Below are positions 10,899-15,553 of a DNA stretch of 48,382 nucleotides, piece by piece (positions within the stretch are counted from its first letter, which is position 1; every line of letters starts with the position of its first letter). Origin of the DNA: Candidatus Rokuibacteriota bacterium (GTDB taxonomy: Bacteria; Methylomirabilota; Methylomirabilia; Rokubacteriales; CSP1-6). Under the pieces are notes generated by a model. It ran no database searches, was not told the origin of the DNA, and saw only the letters and a program-made list of their open reading frames with translations. The stretch lies in NCBI GenBank assembly GCA_016209635.1, contig JACQWC010000110.1, forward strand, positions 1 through 48,382, in the 5' to 3' direction. A program made the position numbers and the translations under genes.

Positions 10899-11672
10899 TT
10901 AGGGAAGGGCCGAGCGCCGCCCCGACGGCCACGGGCTCCCCGGCCACCGGTCTGCGGGTCCGCGCCAGCGCTCGGCGTAACGCTGCGTGTCGAGCCCGAG
11001 CGTGTAGAGCGCGAGCAGCCAGACGATGAAGAAGAACGTGCGCCAGGGGCCACGGGCGAGGAACCGCCGACCGGAGGTGAGGAGCGGGACGCGGATCAGC
11101 ACCGTCCGTCCCCGTCGTCGGAGCCGCTGGCTCAGGTCGAGGTCCTCGAGGATCGCGAGATCACGGTACCCGCCGAGCTCCCGGAAGACCGCGGCGCGGA
11201 CGAAGAGGCCCTGATCGCCGTAGTAGTTCCGGGTGAGCCGGTACCGGATCCGGTTGATCCAGGTGATCGCGCGGAGGCTCCAGCCCGGCTCGGCGAAGAG
11301 GTGCTCGAAGGCGCCGCCCACGACCCGCGCATCCCGGAGCGCCTCCTCGATGCGCCGCACGGCGTCGACGGGCGGGAGCGAGTCGGCGTGGACGAAGAAG
11401 AACGTCGCGCCCGTCGCGGCCGCGGCGCCCGCGTTCATGAGGGCGGCGCGGGTGGCGCCGGGGGGCCAGAGGAGGCGGGCGCGGCCAGCCACGGCGCGCT
11501 CGGTGCCCTCCCGGTCTCCCGAGGCCGCGACGATCAGCTCGACGGCCTCCCCTCCCGGGAGCCCGCGCAGGCGGTCGAGCGTGAGCCCGAGGGCCGCGGC
11601 GTCGTTCCGCGCGGGAACGATGACCGACAGCGGAGCCGTCAGCGCGCGCTCACTCGGGCTCGCAGACCTCAT
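10899..11672 (-). CDS. Family 2 glycosyltransferase, TIGR04283-like
   Basis: A 257-residue GT-A fold glycosyltransferase. After a short N-terminus it shows LSVIVPARNDAAALGLTLD and then the nucleotide-sugar region with the acidic triplet context FFFVHADSLPP. The later block NYYGDQGLFVRAAVFRELGG, followed by LEDLDLSQRLRRRGR, is typical of TIGR04283, the family first named rSAM/selenodomain-associated transferase 2 and later linked to arsenosugar synthesis. A hydrophobic segment near the C-terminus (TFFFIVWLLALYTLG) may anchor it to the membrane. The ATG at 11672 overlaps the end of the selenium-containing reductase gene by 23 bases. The alternative CTG at about 11642 would remove the overlap. 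The acceptor is unknown. Confidence 0.8.
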   Translation of the reverse strand: MRSASPSERALTAPLSVIVPARNDAAALGLTLDRLRGLPGGEAVELIVAASGDREGTERAVAGRARLLWPPGATRAALMNAGAAAATGATFFFVHADSLPPVDAVRRIEEALRDARVVGGAFEHLFAEPGWSLRAITWINRIRYRLTRNYYGDQGLFVRAAVFRELGGYRDLAILEDLDLSQRLRRRGRTVLIRVPLLTSGRRFLARGPWRTFFFIVWLLALYTLGLDTQRYAERWRGPADRWPGSPWPSGRRSALP

Positions 11673-13020
11673 GGTGGTCGTGGCCGAAGATCTTGAGCAA
11701 CCGCTCGCCGTGGCTCGGGTGGATCGAGAGCTGGCTCGCCAGGAGATCGGCGGCGGCGCCGGTGCGGATCGCCAGCGCCGCGAGCTGGATGAGCTCAGCG
11801 GCCGCGTACGAGACCATCTGGACGCCGAGCACCTTCTCCGACGCCCCGTCGAAGACCAGCTTGAGATAGCCCGCGTCCTCGCCCGTGGCCCGCCCGTTCG
11901 ACGCGCCGCGCATGTCGTGGGTGGCGACGTGGCACCTGACCCCGCGACGAACCGCCTCCCGGTGGGCCAGGCCGACGCGCCCGACCTCGGGGGTCGTGAA
12001 GATCGTCTGGGGGACGACACTGTAATCCGCCGCCTCGACGTCGCCGAGGAGCGCGTTCCGCGCGGCGAGCTTCCCCTCGTACGCGGCGGTCGGCGTGAGC
12101 TGCTGGTTGCCGGCCGCGTCGCCCGCCGCGTAGATGTGGGGGATCGAGGTCTTGAGATGCGCGTCGACCCTGAGGCCGAGCCTCCCCATCGCGAGCGGGA
12201 GGACGTCCGCGTGGAGACGCCGCGCGTCGAAGCGCCGCCCGACCGCGACACAGACCTGGTCGGCCGTGACTGCCATCGGCTTCCCGTCCGCCGCCAGATG
12301 GGTGGTGACGCGCCCCGGCCCTCCGGAGAACCGCTCGACCCTGGCACCCAGGAGGAACGTGACGCCCCGGGACTCGAGGATCCGCCGAAGATAGGCGGCG
12401 ACGTCGGCGTCGAGCGCGGGGAGGATCTCCGGCTCGCGTCCGACGACGGTCACGCGGGCGCCGAGGTCGGCGAAGGCGCCCGCCATCTCGAGGCCGATGA
12501 CCCCCGCGCCAACCAGCGTCAGGCTCTCGGGGAAGCGCGGGAGGAAGAGGACCTCGTCCGAGGTGATCGTCAGCTCGCGTCCGGACACCTCCGGCACGAC
12601 GGGCTCGGAGCCCGCGGCGACCACGATCCGCTCGCCCTCGATCCGCTCCCCGCCGGCCGCGAGCGTGTGGGCGTCGACGAAGCGGGCCTCGGCGAGATAG
12701 ACCCTGGCGCCGCTCGCGTCGAACGCGTGCGGGGAAGGCTGGAGCTGACGGACGATCGCGTGCTGGCGCGCGACCACCGCGTCCCAGTCGAGCGTGACCG
12801 GGCCCGTCCGCGTGCCGAACGCGGGGGCGCCCTTCACGAGCTGGTGGATCCGCGCAGACCTTACCAAGGTCTTCTTCGGTATTCACCCCCGGTGGATGCA
12901 GGCGCCGCCGAGCGGGCCGGGGTCGACGAGCGCGACGCTCGCCCCGAGCTTCGTCCCTTGCTTGAGCGCGTTGATCCCCGCCGCGCCCCCGCCGATCACG
13001 AGCAGGTCGTACCGGGCCAT
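11650..13020 (-). CDS. Flavin disulfide reductase (mercuric reductase/lipoamide dehydrogenase-like) with in-frame UGA read as selenocysteine at residue 46
   Basis: A 456-residue pyridine nucleotide-disulfide oxidoreductase. It has the N-terminal FAD motif LLVIGGGAAGINAL (7-20), the NAD(P)H motif LVGAGVIGLEMAGAF, the second FAD motif IPHIYAAGDAAG and the C-terminal dimerisation domain ending SIHPSHGERLLKIFGHDHHE. The redox site reads GGACIHRG-UGA-IPKKT: the first cysteine is Cys41, and the codon for the second, 12885-12883, is TGA. The frame is open on both sides for 45 and 410 codons, so this is one gene, with CxxxxU replacing CxxxxC. A perfect hairpin with a GG-containing loop begins 11 bases after the UGA. 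The ATG at 13020 follows GTGAGG at good distance; an ATG at 13029 lies too close to it. The true substrate is unknown. Confidence 0.88.
12850..12885 (-). promoter_or_regulatory. Predicted bacterial SECIS element (UGA plus hairpin) of the flavin reductase gene
   Basis: Downstream of the UGA (12885-12883) the transcript can form AGACCT-TGGTA-AGGTCT: a perfect six-base stem at 12872-12867 and 12861-12856 with a five-base loop containing GG. A lower stem CCG/CGG (12879-12877 with 12852-12850) is separated by a small internal loop. The apical loop lies 17-21 bases after the UGA, inside the range seen for bacterial SECIS elements recognised by SelB. Confidence 0.78.
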
Positions 13021-13031
13021 GTGGGGCATCC

Positions 13032-13544
13032 TCACGTGAGCCGCAGCAGGAGGTCGCCGAGCCGGGTCCGCGCGCTGCCGGCGCCCGAGAGCCGGCCGGC
13101 GAGGAGCTGATCGATCCCGAGCACCCGTCCCGAGCGGCTCTGCGCGAAGACGAGCTGGGGCGCGATCAGGAGGGGCCAGATCCAGTACCACTCGCCGGGC
13201 ACCGAGTAGGCGCCGAGGGCGATGTTCACCTGCCAGAGCGCCCCGCCGAGGCCGCCCGCCACGGTGAAGAGCCCGAGCAGGAGGGAGAGCCCGAGCGCCA
13301 GCTCGGTGAGGAACGTCAGGTAGCCGAAGAGGTCGAAGTTGGGGATGACGACCTGCTCGAGGAAGGCCCCGTAGAGGCCGAAGGTCGGATGCTTCACCTC
13401 CTGCCCGAGCCACCCGTAGAGCCAGCCGAACCGGTGACCCTCGTGGACGATCCAGGGAGCCTTCTGGAGCGCCATGTCGAGATAGAGCAGGCCGAACATC
13501 ATCCGGAACAGTGCCAGGCCGAGTCCAGGGACTTGCCGGCTCAT
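13032..13544 (-). CDS. DoxX/TQO-small-subunit-like membrane protein
   Basis: A 170-residue integral membrane protein with about four hydrophobic helices: around LGLALFRMMFGLLYLDMAL, FGYLTFLTELALGLSLLLG, an alanine/glycine-rich helix, and WYWIWPLLIAPQLVF. This pattern fits DoxX-like or thiosulfate:quinone oxidoreductase small-subunit-like proteins, which often accompany redox flavoproteins. It sits directly upstream of the selenocysteine-containing reductase (12-base gap), so the two may form a membrane-linked redox pair; that is an inference. Its ATG overlaps the stop of the debranching enzyme gene (ATGA). The exact function is unknown. Confidence 0.68.
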   Translation of the reverse strand: MSRQVPGLGLALFRMMFGLLYLDMALQKAPWIVHEGHRFGWLYGWLGQEVKHPTFGLYGAFLEQVVIPNFDLFGYLTFLTELALGLSLLLGLFTVAGGLGGALWQVNIALGAYSVPGEWYWIWPLLIAPQLVFAQSRSGRVLGIDQLLAGRLSGAGSARTRLGDLLLRLT

Positions 13545-15553
13545 CGTGCCCTCCCGCGCTTTGCGCGCCCGCGGGCGCCGGTGATCTCGTGCCAGGCGTG
13601 GAGCGTCTCGGCGACGCTCCACGCCTGCGCGATGCACCCGCGCGGCGTGAACGGAGGATCCCCGTCGAAGATCTCGGCGATGCTGCCGAGCCCGTAGTCG
13701 CCGAGGTGGTGCGCCATCGGCTCGAGGAGCGCCCGCGCCGCGTCGCGGTCGCGGTGGACGCGCAGGTGGGCCCGCGCGAGGGGGCCGAGGAGCCATCCCC
13801 ACACCGTCCCCCGATGATACGCGCCGTCACGCTCCCAGGGTCCGCCCTCGTAGCGTCCCCGGTACTCGGGGTGCCCGGGCGCCAGGCTCCGGAGCCCGAA
13901 CGAGGTCAGGAGATGGAGCGCGCACGCGTCGACCACCCGTCGCTGGCGCTCCTCGGAGAGCGGGCTCTCGGGAAGCGCCACGGCGAAGACCTGGTTCGGA
14001 CGGAGCGCCGGGTCGGCGCCCTCGGGACCGTCGAGCACGTCGTAGCAGTAGCCCGCGGCCTCGTTCCAGAACCGCGCGAACCCGCCGCGCGCCCCGGCCG
14101 CCAGCTCCTCCCACGGCCCGGCCGGCCTTCCGAGGCGCCGGGAGAACGCGGCCAGCGCGCGGAGGGCGTGATACCAGAGGGCGTTGATCTCGACCGGCTT
14201 CCCCGTCCGCGGCGTGACCACCCAGTCCCCGACCTTGGCGTCCATCCACGTGAGCTGGACGCCCGGCTCGCCCGCGCGGAGCAGGCCGTCCCTCGGGTCC
14301 ACGACGATGCCGTAGCGCGTCCCCTTGCGGTACCAGGCGACGATCTACTCGAGCACCGGGTGGAGAGACCGGAGCAGCGCATCGTCACCCGTCGCCGCAT
14401 GGTACGCACGGACCGCCTCGAAATACCAGAGCGCCGCGTCCACCGTATTGTACTCGGGCGCCTCCCCCGCGTCGGGAAACCGGTTGGGCAGCATCCCCCG
14501 GTCGACGAAGCGCGCGAACGTGGTGAGCACCCGGCGCGCGACGTCGGCGCGCCCGGTGGAGAGCAGGAGGCCCGGGAGGCCGATCATCGTGTCGCGCCCC
14601 CAGTCCCCGAACCAATGGTAGCCCGCGATGACCGACATCCCGTCGGGCTCACCCTCGATCGCGCGCCGCACCACGAACTGGTCCGCGGCGAGCACGAGCC
14701 GGGCGATCCATGGCGGCGCCTGGCGCGTCTCCGGGCGGGCCCGCCGCCAGGCCGCGAGGACGCGCGCCTCGTGCCGGCGGCGATCGGCGAGGGCCTGCTC
14801 GCCGTCGAGCCCGGGCGCGTCCTCCGTCGACGCGACGAGCGTCAGCGCCTCGCCAGGCGCGAGGCGCGCCCGGAAGGCCCCGGCGCGCAGGTGATCCTCC
14901 CGGGCGTCGAGCCCACGCTCGACCTCGCGGCTCAGGAGGAAGCCCGCGTACCAGGTGTGGCCCGCCTCGACCTCGGCCCCGGGCGCCTTGAGGACGCACG
15001 GCCGGGCGCCCTCGAAGGCGACGACGCGGAGCCCTCCGGGGACCGCCGTGACCTCCATCGCCCAGCCCTCGCCTCGCGTGCTGCCGTGATAGTCGCGATA
15101 GTTGACGAGCGGGTGGACCTCGAGCGCGAGCGGTCGGGCGCCGCGGACGAGCCGGTACTGGACGTAGGTCGTGTTGGCGCCCTGCGCCATCCAGACGCGC
15201 TTCTCGAGGAGCGCGTCCGCGATCGCGTACGTCCACACCGGAGTCGTCCCCTCGAGCCGGAACCGCTCGATCTCCCGGTAGCCGTGGGGATCCACGGTGC
15301 CGTCCGCCCAGCGGTTGGTCGAGAGCAGATACCGCCGGCCGGCGTACTCCACGCTCTCCTCGAGCTTCGCGAGGACGAGCGTGCGGCCGAGCGGCGGCTT
15401 GAGCGCGGCGACCAGGAGACCGTGGTAGCGGCGCGTGAGGAGGCCCGCGACGGTGCCCGACGCGTACCCGCCGATCCCGTTGGTGCAGAGCCACTCGCGG
15501 GACTCGGCGGTCGGGAGGTCGCCCGCGACCTCGCGGCCGACGTCCAGGCTCAC
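13541..15553 (-). pseudogene. Glycogen debranching enzyme (amylo-alpha-1,6-glucosidase type) interrupted by an in-frame TAG
   Basis: The frame from 15553 to 13541 encodes a 670-residue protein of the archaeal/bacterial GDE family if one amber codon at 14347-14345 is read through. The N-terminal domain shows REWLCTNGIGGYASGT and LLTRRYHGLLVAAL. The (alpha/alpha)6 barrel shows WFGDWGRDTMIGLPGLLL before the stop and QLTWMDAKVGDWVVTPR, NALWYHAL and GTVWGWLLGPL after it. The TAG is codon 403, between HPVLE and IVAWYRKGTRYG. The 267 codons beyond it stay fully conserved, so the interruption is a recent nonsense change, a sequencing error, or a recoded codon. The product would remove alpha-1,6 branches from glycogen, which fits the neighbouring glucosidase. 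Confidence 0.82.

Follow-up and report, generated by a model that had tools for sequence, protein, structure and literature searches.

A probable selenocysteine-containing flavoprotein disulfide reductase of Rokubacteria with selenocysteine in its N-terminal redox pair

A gene on the minus strand of the analysed 48,382-nucleotide stretch of Candidatus Rokuibacteriota DNA (hereafter the window) very probably encodes a selenoprotein, namely an FAD- and NAD(P)H-dependent disulfide reductase of the two-cysteine class, with selenocysteine (Sec) as the second member of its CxxxxC redox motif (C41…U46). This assignment, derived from sequence analysis, was made because the UGA codon and a SECIS hairpin following it are conserved, and because selA, selB, selC and a Sec-type selD are present. 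The location of Sec on the flavin side, instead of at the substrate-facing cysteine, is the chemically odd feature of the enzyme.

Reading frame, domains and redox site

The gene (13020–11650, minus strand) comprises a frame of 456 residues, which runs from the ATG at 13020 to the TGA at 11652–11650 and contains the TGA at 12885–12883 as its sole internal stop. A previous sequence-only reading of the window had described the frame as open but for this codon, which it placed at the expected second redox cysteine, and both statements were borne out. The readthrough product harbours U46 within the segment GGACIHRGUIPKK, and alignment with the solved structures of MerA (5x1y) and glutathione amide reductase (2r9z) assigned U46 to the column of the second cysteine of their GGTCVNxGCVPxK motif. 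The domains found were Pyr_redox_2 (PF07992; 1.5e-57) and Pyr_redox_dim (PF02852; 4.1e-25), which together span nearly the full length. The protein thus displays FAD and NAD Rossmann domains, the four-residue redox spacing, a dimerisation domain and the HPxxxE motif, which are the defining features of two-cysteine disulfide reductases.

The redox pair is completed by Cys41, the substrate-facing partner, whose TGC codon (12898–12900, minus strand) is invariant in alignment A1 except for locus L076, where it is TGA. Near the C-terminus, the acid–base motif HPSHGE (11704–11721, minus strand) includes His434, Pro435 and Glu439, all of which are invariant in alignment A2, and the pattern HPS[HQ]xE was found in 18/18 Sec-type genes of the window group (group I) with a complete 3′ end. 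The chain ends in the tail GHDHHEVCEPE (11653–11685, minus strand), whose cysteine is conserved in 17 of these 18 genes; it is missing in L058, and also in L069, an orthologue with cysteine in place of Sec.

Within this superfamily, the N-terminal cysteine attacks the substrate, and the second cysteine faces the flavin and forms a thiolate–flavin charge-transfer complex. On this basis, a flavin-facing selenolate is predicted for Sec46. By analogy with the superfamily, NAD(P)H, with the choice of coenzyme likewise presumed, would reduce FAD, which in turn would reduce the Cys41–Sec46 selenylsulfide. Sec46 would then remain as a selenolate stacked on the flavin in the charge-transfer position, with Cys41 attacking the substrate and His434–Glu439 from the partner subunit putatively serving as the acid–base pair. 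The conserved C-terminal cysteine may relay electrons or a metal.

The UGA codon, its hairpin and the selenocysteine machinery

A search of 95 Methylomirabilota genomes yielded 21 orthologues (54–100% identity) from 20 genomes, 19 of which (18 genomes, as G066 has two) contain exactly one stop, a TGA at codon 46 (12883–12885, minus strand, in the window). These TGA-bearing sequences extend down to about 61% identity, and neither TAA nor TAG was ever found at this codon. The two remaining orthologues are L069 (G070), which has TGC at codon 46, and L068 (G063:C125), in which the TGA is still present but the hairpin has been lost together with ~41 codons downstream of it, a deletion that also breaks the frame; this locus may be a pseudogene or reflect faulty assembly. 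Given that L069 is an orthologue with cysteine in a Sec-using genome, the fold does not require Sec. The L068 locus (also L092) adjoins an oligopeptide ABC transporter.

A scan of 84,980 species genomes with one protein query, which reaches close relatives only, returned 39 loci. Orthologues were found solely in Rokubacteria (nine long matches and two short fragments), and the nine long loci are also among the 21 phylum orthologues, so that the two sets are not independent. The other 28 loci, including a 208-residue fragment, all encode cysteine enzymes at 28–38% identity. Accordingly, codon 46 was found to be TGA (19 genes), TGC (one gene) or, in the 28 distant homologues, a cysteine codon, in agreement with the expectation of the sequence-only reading. 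The Sec-type sequences are all presumed to stem from metagenome assemblies, as is the case for the named ones. A search of viral contigs for the DNA pattern of C-U-IPKK produced seven stretches, all attributable to chance and none resembling the enzyme, and the plasmid search gave at least 5000 records, with all those among the matches listed below 60% identity. Of 12 pairs, 11 had a dN/dS ratio of at most 0.36 both before and after the TGA, the exception being L062–L063, for which dS is merely 0.03.

The UGA is followed by the hairpin AGACCTT/GGT/AAGGTCT (12872–12856, minus strand), which the sequence-only reading had reported as AGACCT-TGGTA-AGGTCT at SECIS distance. It has a stem of 7 bp and a GGU loop, is separated from the UGA by 17 nt, with the loop starting at the 18th nucleotide after it, and has a folding energy of −12.3 kcal/mol over 41 nt, which was equalled by 4/200 dinucleotide shuffles. 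According to PMC13188914, the bacterial SECIS model requires a loop of 3–9 nt with a G in its first two positions, a stem of 4–16 bp, a distance of 16–37 nt from the UGA and a minimum free energy of at most −7.5, and the window hairpin satisfies these values. When the window peptide was recoded synonymously 20,000 times, a 7-bp stem never arose at this place; for weaker stems, the corresponding fraction was 0.0136 (L017), ~0.034 (L064 and L066) and ~0.05 (a second subfamily, described below). The hairpin codons TTG, GTA, AGG and TCT account for 3.0, 0.8, 7.4 and 0.7%, respectively, of their synonyms elsewhere in the orthologues.

All 22 Sec-type loci (19 of group I and three of the second subfamily) share a perfect stem of 5–7 bp with a GGU or GGUN loop at this position, and none of 29 cysteine homologues (28 distant ones plus L069) has a stem of at least 5 bp there. 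Across 66 pairs from 12 closely related genes, codons +4 to +10 showed zero synonymous differences compared with 35.5% overall, and the five-codon windows in this segment are the lowest of the gene for synonymous difference. Among five distinct stems, two-sided compensatory changes were observed in four of six stem pairs, a count that depends on dropping the fourth loop base, as the stem register shifts by one between 3-nt and 4-nt loops. The covariation score was reached by 2/500 shuffles, and sliding the partner by one column lowered the pairing from 97% to 40–64%. Folding z-scores are modest at some loci (L063, −0.51; L064, −0.48; L066, −0.55), and the 30-nt fold of L063, at −6.5 kcal/mol, falls short of the published −7.5 limit. 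The Rfam search gave a single chance match and otherwise nothing.

The genome itself encodes tRNA-Sec (69.7 bits; also detected by ARAGORN), SelA (506.6 bits) and SelB (379.5 bits), the latter two on contig C168, as well as SelD (351.7 bits), which has an in-frame TGA of its own in the segment CAG*ASK. SelD with TGA is a known selenoprotein and hence serves as a positive control. Throughout the phylum, SelA and SelB each scored above the cut-off in 84/95 genomes, and both did so in 15/18 group I and 3/3 second-subfamily genomes with Sec-type genes. The three group I genomes in which this was not the case (G077, G078 and G087) have SelD with TGA, so that the absent SelA and SelB are most simply explained as assembly gaps. 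The Sec machinery sought in the source genome was thus found, and conservation, covariation and synonymous-site constraint likewise support the earlier proposal of Sec at the second redox position with a SECIS element.

Two other explanations of the TGA were considered. It might have arisen by nonsense mutation or misassembly, with the gene being a pseudogene or its halves being separate genes. Such events do occur in this assembly, in which a neighbouring glycogen debranching gene carries an in-frame TAG and has intact relatives, and the L068 orthologue is broken. However, codon 46 is TGA across 18 genomes, its position coincides with that of the catalytic cysteine codon, purifying selection acts on both sides of it and the hairpin stem covaries, all of which makes this explanation hardly tenable. 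The coincidence of a chance TGA with such a hairpin, which the sequence-only reading had deemed improbable, is indeed so in view of the recodings, the rare hairpin codons and the 19 orthologues with TGA. Alternatively, the UGA might be read through as cysteine or tryptophan, or as part of a general recoding. DNA alone is compatible with such a non-Sec reading, but the genome has the full Sec pathway, including the Sec-type SelD, the hairpin fits the published bacterial SECIS model and many likely genes of the window use TGA as an ordinary stop, so that we regard it as very improbable. Decoding as Sec is thus strongly preferred.

Enzyme class, possible substrate and a second subfamily

The selenoenzyme shares the fold, the redox spacing and HPxxxE with lipoamide dehydrogenase (Lpd), glutathione reductase (GR) and MerA, all of which combine PF07992 and PF02852, but differs from them in having Sec for the second cysteine and a cysteine-containing C-terminal tail, and it passes no family cut-off. 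Its NCBIfam scores were 322.9 bits for Lpd (TIGR01350; cut-off 408.8), 318.2 bits for MerA (TIGR02053; cut-off 454; three relatives, 321–341 bits) and 309.3 bits for GR (cut-off 480). The AF2 model had a pLDDT of 88.3 and TMq values of 0.89–0.93 to the listed Lpd, MerA and GR structures; Lpd heads the list of structural matches, and MerA appears at rank 20. The His434–Glu439 pair and the tail are not placed by this model, as residues 431–456 have pLDDT values below 50.

A role as E3 of keto-acid dehydrogenases was rejected because separate Lpd genes exist. The source genome has four dimerisation-domain genes, of which two score as true Lpd (534.5 and 458.5) and one is unclassified, and G073 and G079 have one Lpd and the Sec enzyme, with no further dimerisation-domain gene. 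Five of six Sec-type genomes, including that of the window, yielded no glutathione synthetase (PF02955), and the sixth, G087, gave a borderline match. This makes home-made glutathione disulfide an unlikely substrate, and the enzyme is probably not a glutathione reductase for it; imported glutathione is compatible with these data. Our best guess is a general disulfide reductase acting on a non-glutathione small thiol or an imported disulfide compound.

The sequence-only reading had termed the enzyme mercuric-reductase-like, which holds as regards superfamily likeness, but the MerA score is below the cut-off and level with those of Lpd and GR. Were the enzyme a genuine reductase of mercury or another metal, Sec would raise the affinity for Hg(II), and the cysteine tail would hand the metal to the active site. 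MerA is indeed among the best-scoring models, and for L017 it ranks first (340.6 bits, below the cut-off); moreover, the conserved C-terminal cysteine and histidine residues recall the C-terminal cysteines of MerA. Known MerA enzymes have a C-terminal cysteine pair and are encoded in mer operons. Against this function, all four members tested are below the MerA cut-off, the tail has one cysteine instead of two, the protein retains HPxxxE, a disulfide reductase motif, Pfam revealed no N-terminal metal-binding domain and no mer genes were recognised among the neighbours scanned or compared. We therefore consider metal reduction unlikely, and favour disulfide reduction.

CoA-disulfide reductases constitute a single-cysteine class without CxxxxC, in which the single cysteine is flavin-proximal. 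The redox-site alignment with two such enzymes (L113 and L114) is not clean by sequence, and their cysteine is presumably at the same place as Sec46. Assignment to the CoA-disulfide reductase selenoproteins was rejected, as the match to TIGR03385 is partial (residues 165–432) and, at 74.4 bits, far under the cut-off of 578.8. Mammalian-type thioredoxin reductases combine an N-terminal CxxxxC pair with Sec in a C-terminal GCUG tail. Like the present enzyme, they belong to this superfamily, use selenium and carry a redox residue in the tail, but the places of Sec and cysteine differ: thioredoxin reductase has Sec in the tail, whereas here Sec would be in the N-terminal pair and cysteine in the tail.

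Table 1 of a 2026 inventory, which covers 119 families and subfamilies of prokaryotic selenoproteins (PMC13188914), includes a CoA-disulfide reductase/FAD-dependent oxidoreductase selenoprotein (TIGR03385) with the motif UGxP, which likewise belongs to the wider flavin disulfide reductase superfamily and contains Sec. It further includes a type III sulfide:quinone reductase (NF049943, motif HxxU; credited to the deep-Sep paper, PMC12013277), which is also a flavoprotein selenoprotein but of another family and with another motif. A CxxxxU two-cysteine enzyme is absent from that table, and among the matches listed in a literature search none described a disulfide reductase with CxxxxU. The sequence-only reading had called Sec in the N-terminal pair unusual; CxxxxU does not feature in this inventory, but the UGxP enzyme indicates that Sec in flavin disulfide reductases is not wholly new. 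According to the same source, a groundwater study of metagenome-assembled genomes (MAGs; Deng et al. 2026) predicted 63 selenoprotein genes in a Methylomirabilota MAG. Several relatives of the present genome are also groundwater MAGs, and the gene may therefore already be in a candidate list.

The source is an uncultured soil and groundwater bacterium, and the replacement by Sec is common to related species. The enzyme would add a selenoprotein family in a phylum with a very large reported selenoproteome. As the two-cysteine family is a textbook case in which each cysteine has its own job, Sec at the flavin side would make the effect of selenium testable with regard to selenolate charge transfer, redox potential and resistance to over-oxidation, and the cysteine orthologue, perhaps along with a relative carrying two Sec residues, would serve as a naturally occurring reference. 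Annotation pipelines likely call such genes truncated or split, so more of them may be hidden.

The second subfamily (subfamily II; 37% identity), which was searched within Methylomirabilota, has TGA at the second redox codon in 3/3 genomes, belonging to other families of the same order. G092 and G093 have CxxxxU, with the G093 gene recovered in two search pieces and the segment between them missing. L076 (G094:C110; 6149–7447 of L095) has TGA at both redox cysteine codons (UxxxxU), and its close relative L074 has TGC followed by TGA. The two UGA codons of L076 are 15 nt apart, and a single hairpin is ~17 and ~32 nt away from them, each distance within the accepted range. Subfamily II has YVFPTL in place of HPS[HQ]xE and thus lacks the histidine, so that it probably acts on another substrate.

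A midpoint-rooted tree, from which L068 and L101 were left out and which included L065 as a partial sequence, carried a long-branch warning. Group I formed one clade, with the cysteine form L069 somewhere at its base, and subfamily II joined cysteine enzymes of the class. This topology suggests that Sec was gained twice in these enzymes, which is suggested rather than established on account of the long branches and the midpoint root. We tentatively propose, with a confidence just short of even, the broader scenario of a Rokubacteria lineage in which flavin-proximal Sec was gained twice and which includes a UxxxxU diselenide flavoprotein (L076 of G094), with one SECIS element serving both UGA codons.

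Genomic neighbourhood

The end of the reductase gene overlaps the start of a gene (10902–11672, minus strand) matching TIGR04283, ‘arsenosugar biosynthesis glycosyltransferase’ (187 bits; cut-off 182). A TIGR04283 gene also adjoins the subfamily II gene in L094 (5417–6121) but is not beside other orthologues, so the association may be due to chance. Upstream lies a gene for a DoxD-like small membrane protein (13032–13502, minus strand; PF04173, 1.5e-05 on the longer frame 13035–13802), which is not conserved at the other loci compared.

Loci of the clade close to the window have the gene among sugar genes, including those for a glycoside hydrolase, a class I aldolase, glucokinase and 6-phosphogluconate dehydrogenase. 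L089, L090 and L096 have an operon consisting of a branched-chain-type ABC transporter, a protein of 296–303 residues without Pfam match (two tested), an SDR-type or similar gene, the Sec reductase and an M24 peptidase, with an alanine racemase inserted in L096. The 296–303-residue protein and the SDR still adjoin the reductase in the cysteine form L093. As a guide to the substrate, the neighbourhood is only partly useful.

Of note, the glycogen debranching gene of the window (13541–15553, minus strand) has an in-frame TAG at 14345–14347, after residue 402, and the related genes in L083, L084 and L086 have no interruption; the TAG arose either by nonsense mutation or through faulty assembly.
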